Assembly (NCBI RefSeq): GCF_921293095.1 | Contig: NC_060251.1 | Coordinates: 97,326,566-97,390,565 of the forward strand | Direction of reading: 5' to 3' | DNA length: 64,000 nt | From: Ischnura elegans | Lineage: Eukaryota > Arthropoda > Insecta > Odonata > Coenagrionidae | Part shown: in pieces, positions 1,476 through 58,640 of the stretch | How the letters are laid out: the number at the start of each line of letters is the position of its first letter | How positions within the stretch are numbered: the stretch's first letter is position 1 | Notes under the pieces: model-generated | The model's database searches: none | Told to the model about the DNA's origin: nothing | The model's input: only the letters and a program-made list of their open reading frames with translations | Position numbers and translations under genes: made by a program

Positions 1476-4400
1476 AACCACCCTATTGCTAATTGTTAGC
1501 AGAACAACGTTCATGGGGCTAAATTTATCGGTGGATAATGTAAATCTAGAAAAAAATAGCAACTACCGGTATTCTTCCTCCCAAGAAAAGTATTCTACCG
1601 GTAAAAGTAAGTTTACAGGGAGAATTTGCGAATCGCCTCGACTATTCCCTATTCCCTGTCTGAAATTCCCACTTCAATTCCCAGAAAGGTCAACTTCCTT
1701 TCGTGCTATCAATAAATCCAATTCACTTCTTCTCCCCTCTACACTAACCTATCAGCTTACTTAATTTTTTTCGTTCATCACGGCTTTTAGTACTCCTTTC
1801 CCCCTTAGTAATTATGACGTCATTATCTCGAAAACGCTTAGAGATAGATCAAAACAAACAGAAATTCGTGCCTAAAGACCTTTATTTTCAGGTTTTACGT
1901 ATGGGTAGTACTTGTTCTGCCCCAAAAAACTCAATCGAGGGTCCTCCGTACTTAGGGCTCTTGGGGAACGGGTTGCCGTTATTTTTAAGTAACCAAATTT
2001 TAACACGCGAATATAAACCTCATGTGAATAATTTTGAGATTGAGAAAACATATAACTTCTCAATTCTGAAAAGTAAGGGCCGGCCTACTGCCCAAGTTAA
2101 AAATAATGTCACTAGGATACATATATTCCTTCACGAACACAGTACATGCGCAGTACAACACAAATTATACGTCTCATACATACTTTGCAGTAATTTGGGC
2201 GTTTCCATTCCTTGGTTAATACGCCGAACAAAGAAAATAAAATCAAATTATACTATGGCGAAGAAATTAATAGAAAATATTGCTGTTATAACTACATTTC
2301 ATCACAAAAAATAAATATGGTGGAAAAAATTATATCTGGGAAGAGGAATTAATAAGGAGAGGTATAAAAAACTCCCACGAAGGAACTTGACACTGAGAAC
2401 GTATTCTTTTCACGCGACGAAGCCATAAAAAAAAGGAGAAATTCCTTTTGAAACTCGAGTTAGTGACGAATAGGACGTTCTCAGGTGGGCGACATTGCCG
2501 AAAGGCTTTTAGGAAGGCATTTCGTTACGGAAGCCACAAAAAAATAAACAAAACACGCGCGGATATAATGGCGAGCATTGTCACCCTATCGCTACATTCA
2601 CAGTGTCATCACATGACTCCTGAAAAGATCTCCTCGAATTGTTTGTAAGGCTTTCCGATTTTTTCAACCCGAACCGAGTTCAACGATCTTTTATAGACAT
2701 AACGATCCTTGGGGATACAGAACTCTTCTAAAAAACATCCTTTCCCCGAAGAAATTCTTAATTCAAAATAAGAATTCGTAACGAGGAGACAGCGGTCATT
2801 CATCTTCCATCATACTCCAATTTCTAGCGGCTCAACACCCACGCATTTATTTTCCCTGAAAGGAATATTTCCATCCAGCGTGGATTTGGCAAATATTTGC
2901 GAATGTAAGCGTTTCCCAAAACCAAACTATGTTCCAAAAGGTACTACTAACGAGGGTTGCCAGTCCGCTGGTTTCTCCAAATGAGTTCACGTCATTTTTT
3001 GCGTAACAGTGTAGTAGATTATGGTCAATTCAAATGGCTGATGATGCAATCCGATTCGAAAATTAGGATTGGATTGTTAGAATACGAGAGTATTATCTAT
3101 ATTGCAAAACGAAAGGCAACCAACGGTATCGTATCGTAAAAATGCGTCGTGATGCGACACGGAAGTAACGTAATTCAAAGGAGTCTTCAGTGTGAAAAAA
3201 TGGGAAAACATCAGACGCCGTAAGTGCATAAAATATTTCCACGAACAAAAATAAATTTTCAGTGAAAATCACTGAAACAAAGGTGAATTGTAGGCTTCTG
3301 TGAAGGAAAACGTAGAAATAAATTATGAAAAGAAAGTGCCGAAGCTAGACTGGAACTTGAAGTAATTTTTTAGATAATGAAGTAAAATATTATACATAAA
3401 TCACTCCTAAACACATTAATCCGGTTCAAAGAATTCAATAAAATTTAACAAGTCAATCGAAAACCAATTGCCATGGTAAATTATAACTTTGAGTTGTTTT
3501 AAAGGTAATAAATTTGAAATTAAATTGTTTAAATGCTTTTTTATTTAAACTATAGGCTATATAACCCATATGTGAGTGATTTTAGAACATCACCCGATGG
3601 ACTGTGACACTACAGTTTGATTGAATTCTGAGACCCGCATTTTGGACACTCGCCTTAAGTAACCACCACCATTAAGTGCTTAGAAAGGATGGGTGTACCA
3701 AATTTTGCTTCACTATCTAAAAAATAGTAATCTTTCGAAAATAAAAAATTACAATGCATTTTCTTGCATTAAAAATAAGCCAGAAAGTCGTTCGTTGCTA
3801 GAGGCGATCCGTGATGAATTTTGAGAATAATCCAATAAAATAATTAAACTTCATCAACGTGACACATATTTCATTTTTTTGCTTTACTTTTCCGTTATGA
3901 ACAATTGTTCCCATCATTATTAGTACTATTAGAAAGCTTCAAACCTAAATCAGATTTTTATGAGAAGATACAAGAGCTTTATTAGTCACGGTTTCTTGCT
4001 ATCCGACCCCGGGTGTGCTTTAAAGTGAGTAAACAATTACATTAAGCGTAGATATATGATGAGTAACAACAAATATTTTCAATGTACCTTAAAAAATTGT
4101 TAGACAAATATTAAATAGTGGTATTGTATTTGATGGAATGAATTAGACGGGGATTAAACTTCCAAACCCATGATGATGCAATTAACCCTACAGGCTAGCA
4201 TAGACTGTGTTTGCAGAAATTCATTCCTTCCCAGCATACTAGAGTTAGCAGGTAAATTACTATGTGATTTCCCTTCACTCCCGAAACTACTAGAGCCGCT
4301 TTGGCTAGCAAAATGAGACTCCTAGCCTCACAACATTAAGTTATCTCGCAGATTATACATGCTCGTGGCCGTACTGGTCTCCGAATTAGGAAACCTTTGG

Positions 4401-5243: not shown

Positions 5244-5945
5244 CTATTATTTTTTAATTGCCTTAATCGAAAGATTATTACTCCTGGCGTATGCATTTCA
5301 CGATTTTAGATTTTAGAATTACGATATCTAATTTTCGTGATTTAATGAAAAGTGAAATTTTTCAAGCGCGCGAAAACGCGACGCCTAAGTAGGAATGATG
5401 GGAAAAGTCCGTGTGACGTATTTCTGGTTCCCGCTGTCGCCGTGTGAGGTAACCTTGGGGTGAGGATATGTGCGCCGCTGCTATGCAGGCTGTTAGCAGG
5501 TAGCCGAGTACCCTGCTATTAGGTAGCGCTTGGCTTAAATAAGGGTTATTAATACCTTATCAAGCAAAGGAAACTTTCCAACCATAAGCAGATTTAATAG
5601 GTAATTATTGAGAGATGTTTCCCTGAGCTATGTGCTTCATGCATGCATTGGTAATCTCATACGATGTAAAACTCCTATCAACTCGTATAGAAACTAGGTC
5701 CCTGTGACGCCGCGTGGAGTGGCACCGCATGGGCGCCATTCTGGCCTTTTTCAAATGCGGTTAAAATTGACCATTGCCACTCGTCTAAACTGGGATTTCT
5801 AAAACCTAATAATTTGTATATTATGAATATACTAGCAAATACAAGAGCAATACAAATAATGGTGGGTAACGAATCGAAATCAATGCCTTTCATTTTCTTT
5901 GATGAAGGAAATTCCCTATTGATGCATTGGCTTCGCTATGAGCGA
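5244..5945 (-). repeat. Right arm of ~5.1-kb inverted repeat
   Basis: Reverse-complement partner of 786-1475. Relative to the left arm it carries a net insertion of 18 bases near 5825-5850, which leaves its minus-strand frame (5678-5893) open. That frame encodes a short hydrophobic run (IALVFASIFIIY), then the segment shared with the left arm, and stops shortly after. There is no splice or promoter evidence that it is expressed. Confidence 0.8.
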
Positions 5946-10637: not shown

Positions 10638-10710
10638 TGCCTCCTGAGAGAATTGAACTCTCGACCCCTGGTTTACAAGACCAGTGCTCTAACCACTGAG
10701 CTAAGGAGGC
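10638..10710 (-). tRNA. tRNA-Thr (anticodon UGU)
   Basis: This 73-nt minus-strand sequence folds into a full cloverleaf with no mismatches. The acceptor stem is GCCTCCT/AGGAGGC, the D stem GCTC/GAGC, the anticodon stem CTGGT/ACCAG with loop CTTGTAA, and the T stem GAGAG/CTCTC. Anticodon TGT reads threonine ACA/ACG codons. Box A (TAGCTCAGTGG) is canonical and box B (GAGTTCAATTC) departs slightly from consensus. There is no intron, and the CCA end is not encoded, as expected for a eukaryotic nuclear tRNA. A T6 terminator follows directly. Perfect pairing separates it from the decayed tRNA-like SINE heads elsewhere in the window. Confidence 0.93.
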
Positions 10711-37783: not shown

Positions 37784-40700
37784 CTTAGTTTCTGGAAGAT
37801 CAACATATGCTATGGCGTTGTGGCGTAGGTCTATGTCCAGGTGCCGAGTGTTGGGGAGCTCATAATAGTCATCTGTCTTCACGTAATTCTTTTCAGAATC
37901 ATACTGGTTCACATTAAATATTCCATTCACGTAAAAGAAGTTGTTGAAATAGATTTCCTTGATTTTATTGTAGCGCAAGTCTACGCGCCGGAGATTTGGT
38001 AATAGAAAGAAATATTCGGGCATCACCTCGATCTCGTTGTAGGCCAAATTTAGCACCTGCAGATTAATAATGGATTAATTAACAAAGGAGCAGCGGAAAA
38101 TATCGAACATTCGGTCATTTAAAGGGTGCGTTCGGAAAGTAATGCCATAGAATTTCCAGCGCCACTCCTATGATTCGGAATGGGATAAAACCTTTTTAAA
38201 TTGGTGGGATGGATGCTAAGCTTTGCTGCGAAACCAGACTCACTGCTTTTCTGGCCATGAAAGCATCAGGACGTCGGTTACATTGGAAACCTCTGCGCGT
38301 CGCCCTTGTCGCGAAAAAAATTGTGTCGACGATCAAGCAAAGTTTAATTTATGTGCTAAACTGAAATAATCTCTTGAGTGGACGAACAAAATGATTTTTA
38401 AGGCTAATGGGGACTGTGCTCTGCCTTAATCATAAATTTTGCGGTAGTTAAAGGCCCTTAAGGAGGGCCAGGAAGAGGTTCACGTCCAAAACGGCAAGAA
38501 TCAGCGGATCAAAAGTGAAATCATTGCACAATGACTTATTCGACTGCATATGAGTTGTTCATATGGAAGCTTTCCCTAAAGGACACACAGTTATCGCTGC
38601 TTAGCACATGGATGTGTAAGAAATATTCCGAAAAAGGATCATCAGGGCGATAAAAGACGTATCTGCCACCGGGCTACTCCATCTTGACACGCGCTACGAG
38701 TCCGCGAGTCCCTGGCCAAACCATAGGTTAAAACTCTAACCCCTAAAGCCCTGAAGTGGCTTCAGCAGACTAGCTTCTCTTCCTTTGGATTAAGGTAGCC
38801 ATGAAATGAACCCATATTTCGGAGGTCCAATCAGCCGTGACAAGGACCTAGTAAGATCTCAACGAAAAAGCCTTCCTGGGCACGTTACCGGTCATGGCAG
38901 AGTCGCAGGAAAAAATGTGATGAAGCCCAAAGACAGTACATTAAAGAATTTAAATTGCTTGTTCAAACATGTTCAATCAATTACTCTTCAGAAAAATAAC
39001 TGTGTTACTTTCAGAATGCACCCAGTGTGTCTTGTATTCACCCACTTCGAGGTATTGGATGTTCATTTTAGTCTAAAATGAGACTTTCAGTGACGAAATG
39101 GAATAAAAAATATTTTAAGACAAACGTTGTTCTCATTAGAATATTATGCATTCAAATAAAATTTCATCGAAAGTGTGGCAGCCATTAAGGTTAAGTGATT
39201 GGCTTCTGACCGAAGGATCCAGGATTAAATCCTGGGAGAGGTCTTCGGACATTCACAAAAACATTCCCTGATGTTCACAGCATTCCAAGAAAAAAAACTG
39301 GCTACGCTAGCGAAAAACTGTCATATGCACGCCTACAACTCAGTGGACGGGAGGCATACCTCCATCTACCCAAAATAACTTTGTGGTTAGATCCCGTAGC
39401 AAGTGGGAGTTATAGTTAGAAGGGTATTTCACTTCCATAGATAGGTACATAAGATAAGATGTCTTCTCTCGTTTTGCAACCCTGTAGTGAGTTTGATTAT
39501 ATATATAAGCATAAGCAGTAAAAGCACAAGAAATGAGAGAGGTTTTATCAAAACTAAGCTAGATTATTAAATGATATAGGTTATTCACAACTTGTTATTT
39601 GTCCAATTATTTTCTCTGTAAAATATCCAACTCATTGACGAAATTACTTCCTCACAAATATTTATTATAAATGTCAATTCTCCCTGCTTAAGTTTTCTTG
39701 TGTTTTCGTCAATTATCTGGCGATAATTTGAGTGAATGTTATTAAATGTGACCAAATGTTAAAAATTAAAATGATTAGTTAAGTTGCATTTCTTACTTAC
39801 CTCTAAATTATACGCACGCAACAAAAACGAGTCACATCTCATTGTTGTAAAGGTTTGGTATTCCAGGCATCCATCAAAAGATATGCCATTCCTTGATAGA
39901 TCCAAGTGTACCAACTTATCCATGTACATGCTCAAGTGATGATTTCCTTCGCCCCTGAACACATTCCGAAGAGAGTTATTGGAAAGATCCAACGTGCGAA
40001 GACTTGGAGACACGTTTAAGTTATAACGATTTAGTGACAGTTCATCAAATATGTTTCCACTCAAATTAAGCGAGACAAGAGTTTTGTCAACTTCACTGAT
40101 ATTTGGATGCATAGTGAGTCGGTTGTAGGAAATGTCGATGCGTTTAATGCGTTTTAGATGGGCACTAAAGAGATTACATGGGTACTCAAAATTGTGGGAG
40201 GGAGAGGAGTCGATTTTTTTAATAAAATTGAAGGAGAGATCGATGCGCATTAGAGAACGCAAATGTTTTAATGCAATAGAAGAAATGGTTGTCAATTTAT
40301 TCCGTCCCAAAATCAAAACTTTTAATTTGGGAAGGAATAGGATAGGCAGGTAAGTTAGGCGATTTTCTTCCATACTCAAAAACACCAATTTCTTTGCTTC
40401 TCTAAGAGGCAGGAATACTTTCTCGGGCAGATATTCAATTGCATTATTGCTGACATCTATTCTCTCCAAGCTCAGAAGCCCAAAAAAGAAATTCTCCCCC
40501 AGAGTTCTAATGCTGTTACCAGATATGTCCAAAAATCTAAGCCCACGATTATTACTGAAAAAGCTCTCAGAGATATTGTAAATGAGGTTATTTGACAGAT
40601 TTAAATCGCTAAGTACTTTATTAGATATAAAGAGATTAGTAGGTAGTACAAGGATTCTATTGGAGGAAAGGTCCACTACCGATAAGGGCACCATGCCGGA

Positions 40701-41870
40701 GAATATATTTTCTGATATCCAGGACAAGTTGTTATTACTGCAGTCGAATGTAAGTGGAAAAAAACCGATTTCATCCGAGGAATAGCCCTCGTACTGAGAA
40801 ACTAAAGTTTCTAATTCATTTTTGTTCGGTTTGGAAGATAGAGGAAAAGTTTCTTCTCGGCTGAGTGTTTCCACACCATTTTCAGGGTAAATTAGCATAC
40901 TCTTCGAAACAATGGTTCGCTCTAATGCTAAGAGATTGTTTCCACTTAATTTCAAATGCGAAATGGATCTCATAACAGCAAGGCACTTCAAGTCTAAGAA
41001 TTGAAAACGATTATTTGCCGCTTCGAAAGTCATCAATTCATCCAGTTTGCACAAGCTTTTTGGGAGCATCGAGAGGTAATTACTGTTTAAAATAATCTCG
41101 TCGAGATTTTTTGTTGATATAAATACGTTTTCGTCTAAGTGATCTAGCTTGTTTCCAGATATATCAATGGATTCTAGTTCCGTGAGATTTGTCAGTGATG
41201 GAACAGCCTTTAACTTATTATTCGCCAAATAAAGGTGCGTTAAAGAAAGAAAATGGGAGAAAATATTATGCGGAAGGTATTTCAACGATGTTTTGGTAAT
41301 ACCTAAATATTCTAAGGTTTCTGAGGTCTCTTGAAAAAGATCGTCAGGTATGTTTGAAAGAGATGGGCAAGATATCATTATTGTTGTAAGATCGCTAAGA
41401 TTTCGGAGATGATGACTTCTCAGACTGAAATTTTGTAATCCTTCGCAATGTAGAAGAAGGAAGTGCAAAGTGTCTCCTAAATCATTCATATCAGAAAATG
41501 ACCTTTGAGGCAAAATGTGAGAAAATTCCTTCTCTGGTGGAAGGCATCCGCTAACGACGAGGCCGAGAAGAGACAGATTGTCAAAATATAATTTTGAGAC
41601 GTACTGGTAAGGGTCTGAGACAGTGCGGTCATCACATGTAAGCTTAATCATAACATCCAACCCATCTCCCAGTTGTATGTGTATATTCTCTTGACAGTGG
41701 CATGAGTATGCGAACGGCTTCAAATAGCAATCGCACTCTGGATGGTTAAAAAGCTTTTGTAACTTGTGGTTACCCATGGAAGAAGAAAATGTTAGAAACA
41801 TTGCAGTAAAGAGTATTATACGGGTGAAATTTTTCCGAAACATCATAAAGTTCTTCATAAAGGAAATCAT
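37784..41870 (-). CDS. Leucine-rich-repeat receptor, probably Toll-like (two exons)
   Basis: Exon 1 is 41870-39801 (690 codons from ATG) and exon 2 is 38056-37784 (91 codons). Donor GAG|GTAAGT and acceptor CTGCAG join in phase 0 to give LEVLNLAYNEIEVMP, a perfect LRR across the junction. The start is a short basic stretch with hydrophobic residues 18-28, a likely signal peptide, followed by a cysteine cluster (C46, C48, C57, C59). About twenty LRRs follow (SLTHLYLANNKLKAVP, LRFLDISGNSIRTLG). Many N-x-S/T sites fit a glycosylated ectodomain. Exon 2 ends DLRHNAIAYVDLPETK at donor AAG|GTAATC, a segment resembling the membrane-proximal part of arthropod Toll ectodomains. No transmembrane or TIR exon is seen, so Toll identity is an inference; another LRR receptor is possible. 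A longer frame reaches 41909 but uses TTG. No stops inside the exons. Confidence 0.82.
38127..38720 (+). pseudogene. Degenerate mariner transposase remnant
   Basis: Lies inside the LRR intron. It begins GGGTGCGTTCGGAAAGTAATG, typical of a mariner terminal repeat. Near 38570-38700 broken frames give FPKGHTVIAA, then EIFRKRIIRAIKDVSATG, then LLHLDTRYESASP. This resembles the mariner catalytic region (PKGQTVNA, LRRAIRRKRP, HHDNAPAH), with the expected HDNA motif changed to LDTR. Stops and frameshifts abound. The 3' terminus was not found. Confidence 0.55.
39180..39425 (+). repeat. tRNA-derived SINE-like element
   Basis: The head has GGTTAAGTGATTGGCTTC (box A-like), TGACCGAAGGA and box B-like AGGATTAAATCCTGG. 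The body follows with GTCTTCGGACATTC and a long unique tail. It sits in the intron of the LRR gene on the opposite strand. Whether it belongs with the relic at 4826-4895 is uncertain. Confidence 0.55.
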
Positions 41871-41969
41871 TCTATATAATGACGCTGAATATTGATTAAG
41901 TTGTAACAATTGGTGATATACTGATAATTGTGGGAATTAATTAACGCAAGTTAATTGGAATACAGACTT

Positions 41970-44048: not shown

Positions 44049-44056
44049 GTTTGGTA
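44049..44056 (+). repeat. P-element target site duplication, left
   Basis: GTTTGGTA, identical to 47445-47452 on the other side of the element. 8-bp duplications are the rule for P elements. Confidence 0.95.
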
Positions 44057-44082
44057 CACGGCCGTCTTTAAACAGGCCGGAG
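44057..44082 (+). repeat. P-element terminal inverted repeat, left
   Basis: 26 bp beginning CACGGCCGTC and ending CAGGCCGGAG, the exact reverse complement of 47419-47444. The CA start fits the CA...TG ends of known P elements. Subterminal GGCAAC (44094-44099) and GGAGGCCTG (44108-44116) have inverted partners at the other end. Confidence 0.97.
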
Positions 44083-44272
44083 GGATCATATTTGGCAACA
44101 ATGCGAAGGAGGCCTGTTTATTATTTGTTTATCACTCAACAACAGTGGACTCGAGGTGAAGATACTCGACGTGACTCGTTTGAAGTTAATTTTCTTCCTC
44201 TAAATCCTATTTTTGCAAGAGATAACGTTAGAAGATTCGTTTTTTAATCTATCATCTTAGCTGTAGTCGAAG

Positions 44273-44379
44273 GTAAGTTATCTATTTTGTTTTTTTCTTG
44301 AAATAATCCCACTTGCATTCGAAAGGATCAAGTAAGTTTTAGACTGCAATGAATTTAATATGCTATCCCTTTTCATCAG
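44273..44379 (+). other. Predicted 5' UTR intron of P transposase
   Basis: Donor AAG|GTAAGT at 44273 and acceptor CCCTTTTCATCAG ending at 44379, with the start codon as the first three bases after the acceptor. The 107-nt length is typical of small insect introns. In the spliced message an in-frame TAG lies nine bases before the ATG, supporting this ATG as the true start. Confidence 0.7.
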
Positions 44380-47148
44380 ATGCCGAGGAAGTGCTGTGTG
44401 CCGGGATGTAAAAGCAATTACAGCTCCACGTCGGAATATGTTTCGTCCTTTAAATTTCCTTCGACAGCTGCTGAAAGAGAAAGGTGGATTCAGAGTATCC
44501 CAAGGAAGGATTGGGTTCCATCTCCATCCGCGGTTGTTTGTATTAAACATTTTGAAGAGAAGGATATTTCGCGAGTGGAGACCTTTAAAGATAATACTGG
44601 GGTGACAAAAACGTGGAACAGGAGCCGTCCTTTGATTGTTTCCGGTGCAGTGCCACGTTTGTTTGAAGGTTTACCGAAGTATTTAAGTAAGCCCACGGGC
44701 AGTATTACAAGGGAAGCTCCTTCTTGGAGAGAACGTCATGCTACTCGAGTGGGAGATGAGCAGGAAAAGTGGCGTCAAAGTGATGTCGTTAGTGATTTTA
44801 CTTCCCTAAAGTCCAGTATCCAGGATAAAATTGGTGTTGATGGCAATTTGTTGTTTAAATTTAGTGACAGCTATGTGGTGATTTTCTCTGTGTGTTGTGA
44901 ACATATTCCCAAGGTTTCAGCCAGCATCAAAGTTAGTCAACAGATGTGTATAGAGGTATGTGTGAATGGTAATATCATCAGTAGGTCTGAGTTAAAATGG
45001 GCCCTTCATTCTAACTGCCGGCTTCAATATTGGTCACAGTTACAAAACTTGATTAGTAGGTATTTAAAGAATGCCACTATTCCCAATGGTCAACGGTCTA
45101 GAAAAGACTCGTTAAATGTTATTTTAGAAACTTTTGAAACCCTTGCTTTAAGTCCAGAGGAAGAAAGTGATAGGCACTTATTGTTCATGTATGAGCAGTT
45201 AAAGTTGAGTGCTCTTTCGAAGCGTAGGTATTCAGTGAATATGATAATGATTTCATTTTTGATAATGCATCATTCATACAATTGCTATTGCATCCTCAGA
45301 GAAAATGGTCTTCTGCTATTACCCCACCCTAAGCAAATCCGGCAACTGACTTCAAATTTAAATGTATCTGTTTCGTCGGCTGCTTCAAATAAAAACTTTT
45401 TAAGAATAATTTTCGAACGTCTGTCTGAAAGAGAGAGGTACGTTTCTTTGCAGCTGGATGAAATTTATATCCAGCCGAGGTTGAACTACAAAGGGGGGAA
45501 GTTAATTGGCACAGCAGAGAACTCTACAGAGGAGGCCAGAACTGCCCAAGTATTTTTAATTTCATCATTGTATGGTCACTGTAAAGAAGTTGTTTCCGTA
45601 CACCCTGTGAAAAACCAATCGAGTAAAGAACTTTTAGACGTGACGAGGAACATTTTGCATTTGTTGAAGGAAGCTGGCTTCAAAGTTTTGCTTATCGTAA
45701 GTGATAATAATAGGGTAAATTCTAAAATGTTTTCTTTGATGACTGCCAATTCCAATGACAAGCACATTTTTCGGCCAGGCCCCGGGGAAAATATATTCCT
45801 TTCATTTGATTTTGTTCATGTTTATAAAAACTGGGCTAGGAATAATTGGATTGCTTGTAAAGATGTGGAAAAGACATTCGTTTACCCCCCTTTTGAATCA
45901 GATGGCAAAGATGAAGTTAGGTATGCCAAATTTTCTGACATTATTACACTTAACACAAAAGAGCACGGTGATTTGATTAAGTCTGCGCCAAAATTAAATA
46001 ACAAGTCTGTGTATCCTTCAAGGCTTGAGAGACAGAAAGTGACTCTAGTGAACAATATTTTTGATCCATCCACGATCTCTGCAATAAATGTAGCCCAAGG
46101 CGCAGGAAATGGCACTGGGGAGTTCATGAGGGTTGTAAAACAGTGGTGGGATATAGTGAACAATAGGAATCCTATCGAGGGAATAGCTTCCATTGATGAC
46201 AAGAAATTGGAATTTTTGAGAAAATTTATAAATTGGTTGGACCGATGGCGGGGTGTTTCTAAGAAGGGACATTGTCTTTCAGCTGAAACACATGCTGCAC
46301 TCCGACAAAGCACTTTGGTTTTGTTGGAATTCACTACTTATTCCCTAACGATTCTTAAAATGCCGTATGTTCTGAGCAGCAAGCTACATACGGATTATCT
46401 TGAGCAACGCTTCAGCTGCTATCGGCAATTGTCCGGTGGCAATTATAATGTGTCCCTGTGCCAAGTCCTTGAAACTGAGAATAAGTTGAGGGTGAGAAGT
46501 GTTTTGGGATTTCACTCTGCTCGGTATGGTAATGCTCAGTTTTCTCCAGAAGAGTTATTGAAAGAAAATGAGGGCGAAGTTGAAGCGTTGGAAGATGATG
46601 AGCTCATACTCAATCAGTTCGACCTCCTGGAAATTATGAGCAAACCAATGTTAATAACTGCCGAGGAATATTCGGGACTAAATTACGTTTGTGGGTATGC
46701 TGTCAGGAAGGCATTGCAGCACTTAACCTGTGATATATGTGCAAGTTCATATATTTCAGATGAGGGTAGTGAAGATGCCTATTTCAAAGACTTAGACAAT
46801 GGAGGACTTATTTCTCCTTGTATATCGGTAATAAGTGTTGGTCTTCATGCATTGGCCATTATGATGACTCTAACAGAACCAAAGTATGAGGCTACATTTC
46901 TTAGAAAAGAAAATCATAGGCATGTGTTGGTAAACCTAGTGAATAAAATTATCCTCCTTGACGATAATTTAAGAGAAATTTATGAAGACAGCTGTTTACA
47001 GTGCAATGTACCGAACAGTCACTTTTTTGCAAGATTTATTAAAACTCTGACAAATGTATTTCTAAATAATTATACTAAAGTGAGGAATAATAGGTTGGAT
47101 GTCGCTAGACACACTTCCAATAAGAGAAAATACTCTACAATTATGTGA
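44380..47148 (+). CDS. P-element transposase (THAP + RNase H-like DDE)
   Basis: 922 residues, longer than Drosophila P transposase (about 750). Residues 1-95 form a THAP zinc finger: C5 or C6, C10, W36, C54-x2-H57 and the AVPRLF box at 90-95. A middle linker precedes the RNase H-like core, with candidate catalytic residues D360 (LQLDEIYIQP), D442 (IVSDNN) and E675 (DYLEQRFSCYRQLSGG). Spacings of 82 and 233 are close to those known for P transposase. The long 442-675 interval fits the GTP-binding insertion of this family. GYAVRKALQ (772-780) and CDIC (784-787) are usual C-terminal motifs. The frame has no introns, so there is no counterpart of the regulated third intron of Drosophila P. The ATG is chosen because it follows the predicted acceptor and begins the THAP domain. 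Catalytic assignments are by motif, untested. Confidence 0.95.
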   Translation: MPRKCCVPGCKSNYSSTSEYVSSFKFPSTAAERERWIQSIPRKDWVPSPSAVVCIKHFEEKDISRVETFKDNTGVTKTWNRSRPLIVSGAVPRLFEGLPKYLSKPTGSITREAPSWRERHATRVGDEQEKWRQSDVVSDFTSLKSSIQDKIGVDGNLLFKFSDSYVVIFSVCCEHIPKVSASIKVSQQMCIEVCVNGNIISRSELKWALHSNCRLQYWSQLQNLISRYLKNATIPNGQRSRKDSLNVILETFETLALSPEEESDRHLLFMYEQLKLSALSKRRYSVNMIMISFLIMHHSYNCYCILRENGLLLLPHPKQIRQLTSNLNVSVSSAASNKNFLRIIFERLSERERYVSLQLDEIYIQPRLNYKGGKLIGTAENSTEEARTAQVFLISSLYGHCKEVVSVHPVKNQSSKELLDVTRNILHLLKEAGFKVLLIVSDNNRVNSKMFSLMTANSNDKHIFRPGPGENIFLSFDFVHVYKNWARNNWIACKDVEKTFVYPPFESDGKDEVRYAKFSDIITLNTKEHGDLIKSAPKLNNKSVYPSRLERQKVTLVNNIFDPSTISAINVAQGAGNGTGEFMRVVKQWWDIVNNRNPIEGIASIDDKKLEFLRKFINWLDRWRGVSKKGHCLSAETHAALRQSTLVLLEFTTYSLTILKMPYVLSSKLHTDYLEQRFSCYRQLSGGNYNVSLCQVLETENKLRVRSVLGFHSARYGNAQFSPEELLKENEGEVEALEDDELILNQFDLLEIMSKPMLITAEEYSGLNYVCGYAVRKALQHLTCDICASSYISDEGSEDAYFKDLDNGGLISPCISVISVGLHALAIMMTLTEPKYEATFLRKENHRHVLVNLVNKIILLDDNLREIYEDSCLQCNVPNSHFFARFIKTLTNVFLNNYTKVRNNRLDVARHTSNKRKYSTIM

Positions 47149-47175
47149 ATGCTTTAAATTTTGTGTCTATATTTC

Positions 47176-47181
47176 AATAAA
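47176..47181 (+). terminator. Poly(A) signal of P transposase
   Basis: AATAAA 28 bases after the stop codon, inside the element, so the transposase message can end before the right terminal repeat. Confidence 0.7.
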
Positions 47182-47418
47182 ATCATTTGTTTTATACATG
47201 CCTAATTTGTATCATTCCTGTCTGCTCCTGCTTCACAATCAGCAATGGATGCACGATTATCCCGTGGTAAGTGAAACAGCAGTTTTTTCAGTGGATTTTT
47301 TTGACGTAAAGCGAGTTCTTTTGCCGATATTCTACGCCAAAACAATAGACTTGGTCGCAGGTGAGAGCAATCCCGCAGGCCTCCTGATGACGGGCGCGCG
47401 ACGTTGCCACATCGGTCA

Positions 47419-47444
47419 CTCCGGCCTGTTTAAAGACGGCCGTG
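47419..47444 (-). repeat. P-element terminal inverted repeat, right
   Basis: Exact reverse complement of 44057-44082, ending GACGGCCGTG. Subterminal partners GTTGCC (47403-47408) and CAGGCCTCC (47376-47384) mirror the left end. Confidence 0.97.
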
Positions 47445-47452
47445 GTTTGGTA
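47445..47452 (+). repeat. P-element target site duplication, right
   Basis: GTTTGGTA, identical to the left copy at 44049-44056. Confidence 0.95.
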
Positions 47453-48040: not shown

Positions 48041-48280
48041 TTTAAGTATACCGGGACTAGCCACGGCTCCGGCTGTGGCGCCATGCGCACGACCTGGACT
48101 GCTAGTCGCAAAATATGCTCAGCAGTCTATACCACCACGTCCGGTGTAGTCCACAAATTTCCACAGGGGAGAATGGTGCCTCGATAGCTTAACTGGCTAA
48201 AGCACTCGGCTCGGATTCGAATCCAGGTCGAGGCAAATGATTTTTCCTCTGTGGATTTTTCGCATAAATTCTACCAATTT
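48041..48280 (+). repeat. TIR repeat with tRNA-like module, copy A
   Basis: Starts TTTAAGTATACCGGGACTAG, the terminal sequence of this family. The centre (48178-48235) is tRNA-like: acceptor-type stem GCCTCGA/TCGAGGC (7 of 7 pairs), D-arm GCTTAACTGGCTAAAGC and box B-like GGATTCGAATCC, but the anticodon arm is deleted. AAATGATTTTTCCTCTGTGG follows, as in the copies at 58352-58640 and 61683-61800. The 3' terminal repeat is missing here. TAAATTCTACCA occurs both just before (48026) and at the 3' edge (48267), a possible target duplication or coincidence. Confidence 0.7.
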
Positions 48281-58351: not shown

Positions 58352-58640
58352 AAGTATAGCGACACTAGCCGCTGTGATAAATTTTACGGGAGTCACCCGC
58401 AATGCACAATCGTACGAAAGATTCACAGAGAAAAAATCATCCGCCTTGTCCGGGATTCGAACCCGGATCCCCCGATTTCCGGTCGAGTGCTTTAGCCAGT
58501 TAAGCTTTTCTTCCCTGTGGATATTTGCGGACACTACCGGACAAGGTTTTGCTGGACAACAGAGAATATGATGCCACAAGCAGTCCAATAGTGCGCACAG
58601 TACCACAGCCCGAGAGCAGGCCCGGACATAGAATACAAAG
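58352..58640 (-). repeat. TIR repeat with tRNA-like module, copy B
   Basis: The most complete copy, read on the minus strand. The 5' end is a decayed terminal repeat near 58640. A unique section is followed by the tRNA-like module with GCTTAACTGGCTAAAGCAC (box A), an intact anticodon-arm region (CTCGACCGGAAATCGGG) and box B GGGTTCGAATCCC near 58465. Then come CGGATGATTTTTTCTCTGTG and GCGGGTGACTCCCGTAA, and it ends in GCTATACTTTAAA, the inverted counterpart of the family start. Terminal inverted repeats plus an internal tRNA-like promoter are an unusual combination. Confidence 0.7.

Follow-up and report, generated by a model that had tools for sequence, protein, structure and literature searches.

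Structure and classification of the element

The 64,000-nucleotide stretch of the damselfly Ischnura elegans genome analysed here (hereafter the window; C6:97326566-97390565 of the 1.72-Gb genome) carries at 44049-47452 what is very probably a DNA transposon of the P superfamily, structurally complete and of the autonomous type. The assignment is based on protein domains, catalytic columns, guanosine triphosphate (GTP)-site residues and predicted fold, and the element appears on its sequence to be a new member of this superfamily in an odonate. It combines a THAP domain, a ribonuclease H (RNase H)-like core with D/D/E residues and a GTP-binding insertion with terminal inverted repeats, subterminal repeats, target-site duplications of 7 or 8 bp and a palindromic target.

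The element proper (44057-47444; 3,388 bp) lies between two copies of GTTTGGTA (44049-44056 and 47445-47452) that are identical at 8/8 positions. Its terminal inverted repeats (44057-44082, plus strand; 47419-47444, minus strand) pair perfectly over 26/26 bp and, with one mismatch, over 29 bp (97%). A 10-bp subterminal inverted repeat, AGGAGGCCTG, is found 50 bases inside the left end (44107-44116, plus strand) and 59 bases inside the right end (47376-47385, minus strand, reading CAGGCCTCCT on the plus strand). This repeat was present at both ends, with at most one mismatch, in all 42 analysed copies of the family, and it is likely the counterpart of the 11-bp internal repeats of the P element. 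The transposase is encoded in a single uninterrupted ATG frame of 922 codons (44380-47148, plus strand), followed by the polyadenylation motif AATAAA (47176-47181, plus strand; motif only). By eye, a possible intron of the 5' untranslated region could be placed at 44273-44379 (plus strand), with a GTAAGT donor and an TTTTCATCAG acceptor abutting the ATG; it may represent a leader intron ending at the start codon. The perfect termini, the perfect duplication and the open frame with THAP motif and polyadenylation signal had all been described in the initial annotation of this stretch, and the present analysis confirmed each of them.

The THAP zinc-finger domain occupies residues 5-95 (44392-44664, plus strand; PF05485, E 2.5e-15, above cut-off) and carries C5, C10, C54 and H57, which we take to be its zinc ligands. 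The N-terminal part of the RNase-H-like core (TNP-like RNase H N; residues 339-453; 45394-45738, plus strand; PF21787, E 4.9e-14, above cut-off) contains D360 (45457-45459) and D442 (45703-45705), and is followed on the same strand by the GTP-binding insertion domain (residues 514-599; 45919-46176; PF21788, E 0.039) and by the C-terminal part of the core (residues 671-690; 46390-46449; E 0.094), which holds D672 and the candidate catalytic E675 (46402-46404). By phmmer, D442 and E675 align to columns D303 and E531 of the P transposase, and D360 falls on column D230 in a profile stretch that is weak alone (12.5 bits). In an 18-row alignment of relatives D442 was invariant and D360 nearly invariant. 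The earlier proposal that D360, D442 and E675 form the catalytic triad thus agrees with their position in the catalytic columns of P. Six of the eight GTP-site residues named in the consulted part of one study (PMC7776569) are identical in the window protein; K534, K553, V554, D591 and N594 match GTP-contact residues of the P transposase, and the GTP-binding Pfam model was matched by 7 of the 18 family members at E 0.01. The predicted fold of residues 258-713, a region spanning the GTP-binding insertion, matched the P transposase at 18% identity, and this was the best fold match by about 20 Z units.

THAP domains occur in transposases outside the P superfamily, and the domain by itself would also suit another THAP-bearing superfamily, for example Kolobok, whose duplications are TTAA. 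Such an origin is contradicted by the length of the duplications, and the palindromic target, the TNP-like RNase-H match, the lead of the P fold and the GTP-site residues likewise speak for P; we regard it as extremely improbable.

In a protein tree of 13 rows, the window protein grouped with an unnamed protein, P0001 (source 'lgn'), with support of 100/99, and this pair was joined with P0002 and P0003 at 98/97. P0001 was also the nearest protein found (41% identical), and P0003, from Callosobruchus maculatus, was 33% identical; the possibility, raised earlier, of an undescribed P lineage is in line with these values. A profile search for relatives added only two short proteins (P0018 and P0019), and none of the 20 pattern matches of a prokaryote scan was confirmed as a relative. 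No P element of I. elegans was found in the literature searched, which did not cover curated repeat libraries, and one genome paper on I. elegans (PMC10781644) does not use the term 'P element' in its main text (0 occurrences). The presence of such an element in a damselfly is unsurprising, because the sections consulted of one survey list the P superfamily for all of its arthropods (PMC6327564).

Copy family and target duplications

Many related copies were found in the genome; a lone copy without relatives, which the initial annotation had named as a refuting result, was thus not what was observed. The 26-bp end, allowing up to two mismatches, occurred 104 times in forward and 103 times in reverse orientation, whereas the reversed control gave 0 and 0. 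The 42 analysed copies comprise the window element, its sister L002 and 40 copies fetched from end-motif pairs on C1-C6; the set excludes single ends, the C5 pair of 11.8 kb, the C3 pair with both ends on the same strand, the pair at C6:122065592, a pair on C7 and all later contigs.

L002 is 99% identical to the window element over the entire length (31 substitutions in 3.4 kb) and occupies a different site, flanked by a 7-bp duplication of its own. Its frame carries a 4-bp deletion and is stopped at codon 729, and its zinc finger shows the replacement H57Y. Two copies on C14 are 91-92% identical to the window element, with 6 and 8 projected stops and H at position 360, two copies on C8 match element positions 9-1500 only, and C19 holds separate pieces of the element. 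The C8 copies (C8:115177765-115179318 and C8:115198071-115199624) have equal coordinates and identity, are oppositely oriented with about 20 kb between them, and suggest an inverted duplication. Within the copies examined, that in the window was the sole intact one.

A 7-bp duplication was identified in 37 of the 42 copies (35 perfect, 2 with one mismatch) and a perfect 8-bp duplication in two, the window element and L040; three copies (L015, L026 and L041) had none. When left and right flanks of different copies were compared, 7-bp matches appeared in 4 of 1,722 comparisons and 8-bp matches in 0 of 1,722. Thus, of the earlier claim of a P-superfamily element with 8-bp duplications, the superfamily stands, but 8 bp, the rule in P elements sensu stricto, does not hold for this family, in which 7 bp is the norm. 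The 35 perfect 7-bp sites gave a palindromic motif, W-G-G-GYYNRRC-C-C-W, which describes column preferences, single sites being only partly palindromic.

Derivatives and their passenger

Nearly all of the fetched copies (39/40) retain about positions 1-231, 2521-2737 and 2748-3388 of the element, the third part being split into two pieces in L034 and L038; L031 retains 1-95 and 2748-3388. Between the second and third retained parts lies a foreign passenger, which in L044 measures 2,377 bp (positions 452-2828 of the L044 element) and has 98-bp inverted ends at 98% identity, reading TTTACACGG...CCGTGTAAA. It was found in all 40 fetched derivatives (L009-L048), with 98% or more of its length covered in 37 of them; coverage was lower in L045 (85%), L030 (81%) and L031 (72%), and both inner ends were present in 39 of the 40. 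Antisense to the transposase, the passenger encodes a reverse transcriptase (RT; PF00078, E 5.9e-32, 547 codons in L009). It was absent from the window element, from L002 and from eight other fetched pieces of the family (L003-L008, L049 and L050). Four derivatives (L034, L035, L038 and L042) are 3.97-4.09 kb long, about 0.5-0.65 kb longer than most, and L034 and L038 have an extra insertion at a shared place in the 3' part.

The events probably occurred in the order master, internal deletion, passenger and burst, since L049 (1,095 bp; 7-bp duplication with one mismatch) has the same deletion junction and an empty passenger site. A search for a target duplication of the passenger itself detected none at its insertion site, where it replaces about 10 bp of P sequence. 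Pairwise identity among 29 derivatives of 3.3-3.52 kb was 95.6-99.8% (median 96.6%). In the RT frame of 39 copies (L026 left out) we counted 454 non-synonymous and 132 synonymous changes and 40 stop variants, with a ratio of 0.94. The RT is regarded as a passenger because its frame varies neutrally among these copies, and the idea that it drove the spread was rejected for the same reason. We also rejected the view that the window element is a chimera, which was suggested by most genome matches covering only its 3' end; this pattern stems from the foreign centre of the derivatives. No example with P ends appeared in the titles and abstract openings screened for DNA transposons with retroelement cargo; the MER6 transposon, which carries a SINE (short interspersed element) domain, is a precedent according to the part of the source consulted (PMC6887750).

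Selection, age and mobility

The ratio of non-synonymous to synonymous substitution rates (dN/dS) was 0.44 between subfamilies, a figure that includes decay of the C14 copies, and 1.28 overall between the window element and L002. An open frame and past purifying selection might also be expected of a domesticated, THAP9-like host gene that had kept transposon ends by chance, and THAP9 shows, in the consulted part of PMC7776569, that domestication of such a protein occurs. The perfect ends and target duplication at the window locus, the 99% sister elsewhere with a duplication of its own and the roughly 100 places with the same ends make such a gene a very unlikely explanation here.

Polarisation of the differences between the window element and L002 with the other copies, in which majority-polarised changes were counted with their side, assigned 1 non-synonymous, 3 synonymous and 7 non-coding changes to the window lineage, and 14 non-synonymous (one of them a stop), 1 synonymous and 1 non-coding change to the L002 lineage. 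The two lineages differed in Fisher tests (p 0.016 for non-synonymous versus synonymous and p 0.0025 for coding versus non-coding changes, the latter rising to p 0.018 when majority calls are excluded). Coding changes are depleted on the window lineage, with 4 of them against 7 non-coding ones in an element whose length is 82% coding (binomial p 0.001). These small numbers fit a window lineage that would have continued through working copies after L002 died. The insertion appears recent, as the initial annotation had proposed: the perfect ends and duplication, the open frame and the close sister L002 are consistent with this. The window copy is probably the master, or a master, of the family with retroelement-carrying derivatives. 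It is possible, and we put it forward tentatively, that this copy is the one remaining functional master of a young odonate P family and can still transpose, that it or its sisters spread the RT-bearing derivative to about 100 sites, and that its transposase tolerates 7- and 8-bp staggers on identical ends.

If expressed, the transposase would bind the subterminal sites through its THAP finger, pair the two 26-bp ends, presumably with GTP as cofactor, and cut them at the D360/D442/E675 site. Insertion would take place at a palindromic target (approximately WGG-GYYNRRC-CCW) with a stagger of usually 7 and sometimes 8 bp. The window protein or a close sister may in this way have moved the roughly 100 derivatives; in the examined ones only the P ends are left, with the foreign passenger between them.

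Several points weigh against reading the element as an autonomous-type P transposon that works in this way. Of the 31 substitutions that separate it from L002, four could not be polarised and four more were polarised by majority only; with all four unpolarised changes given to the window lineage, the Fisher tests gave p 0.10 (non-synonymous versus synonymous) and p 0.015 (coding versus non-coding). The coding outgroups are few and non-independent, being two near-identical C14 copies and the two C8 copies. The 8-bp duplication of the window element departs from the 7-bp norm of its family, the Pfam models for the GTP-binding domain and the C-terminal RNase-H part fall below cut-off, and copy counts are lower bounds, the genome similarity search having scored 40 of 218 candidates. 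In a search for an empty site, the flanks joined at one GTTTGGTA matched nothing except both flanks of the window locus and a single partial sequence at 77%, a result that is uninformative within a single assembly. The earlier suggestion that the element is possibly still mobile gains indirect support from the depleted coding changes, but no empty site was shown.

The element could instead be a recently dead P element whose frame is open from youth alone and whose protein has at least one disabling replacement; this, too, is a possible but tentative reading. The open frame is unsurprising, since the window lineage has gathered only 11 to 15 changes after parting from L002, and L002 is already dead. 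In addition, the window protein departs from the consensus of its relatives near the active site, for example with SSKLHTDYLE in place of LGKFQTDNLE ahead of E675, and an additional residue precedes ARNNW. On the other hand, its catalytic residues and six of eight GTP-site residues are intact and shared, letter for letter, with L002, only one replacement polarises to the window lineage, and coding changes are depleted there.

Neighbouring features

On the minus strand, a frame of 725 residues with leucine-rich repeats (39762-41936) is 69% identical to the I. elegans 'leucine-rich repeat and death domain-containing protein 1-like' (P0020) and 58% identical to an I. elegans chaoptin-like protein (P0021). 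A long inverted repeat of three blocks, 86-88% complementary and about 3.8 kb apart (817-1469 and 5245-5920), is perhaps another long-ended element. Weak tRNA-model matches at 48178-48235 and 58450-58506, near a 40-base unit repeated at 48041, 58349 and 58662, are perhaps tRNA-derived SINEs; a plain tRNA-Thr is located at 10638-10710.

Comparison with known P-type systems

The Drosophila melanogaster P element (structures 6p5a and 6pe2) shares with the damselfly family the THAP domain, the RNase-H core with GTP-binding insertion, the D/D/E columns, terminal repeats of about 30 bp, subterminal inverted repeats, a palindromic target and internally deleted relatives. The two differ in sequence (18% identity over the fold match) and in the mostly 7-bp duplications of the damselfly family. 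The Drosophila transposase has 751 residues coded in four frames, whereas the window protein has 922 in one frame, with about 200 further residues beyond the end of the fold match at 713.

Galileo, a P-superfamily element of Drosophila, is reported in the consulted sections of one paper to make usually 7-bp and a few 8-bp duplications (three copies in D. willistoni) at a palindromic 15-bp target motif (PMC4168063), and shares both the mixed duplications and the palindromic target with the damselfly family. In contrast, its target consensus is GTATTAC rather than GYYNRRC, and its ends are long and internally repetitive, those of the window element being 26-29 bp. Zebrafish Pdre2, considered here together with THAP9, likewise has terminal and subterminal inverted repeats, as given in the part of PMC10983969 consulted, but its ends are 13 bp, its 12-bp subterminal repeats are distant and its duplications are 8 bp. 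The THAP9_C domain (PF22824) was matched by 3 of the 18 aligned relatives at E 0.01, whereas the window protein itself gave no match up to E 1. In Anopheles, P-type miniature inverted-repeat transposable elements (P-MITEs) consist, in the excerpt consulted, of P ends around a non-P centre, with 5 to 310 copies per family and few autonomous copies alongside (PMC1562414). The damselfly derivatives resemble them in the unrelated centre; they differ in their mostly 7-bp rather than 8-bp duplications and in a 2.4-kb passenger with 98-bp inverted ends and an RT gene.

An intact odonate P-type transposase, together with its ends, target motif and derivatives, would provide a testable pair of autonomous and non-autonomous elements far from Drosophila and zebrafish. 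The occurrence of two staggers on the same ends makes the 7- versus 8-bp difference between Galileo and P directly testable, and the passenger illustrates a route by which a retroelement gene can spread via the ends of another element.
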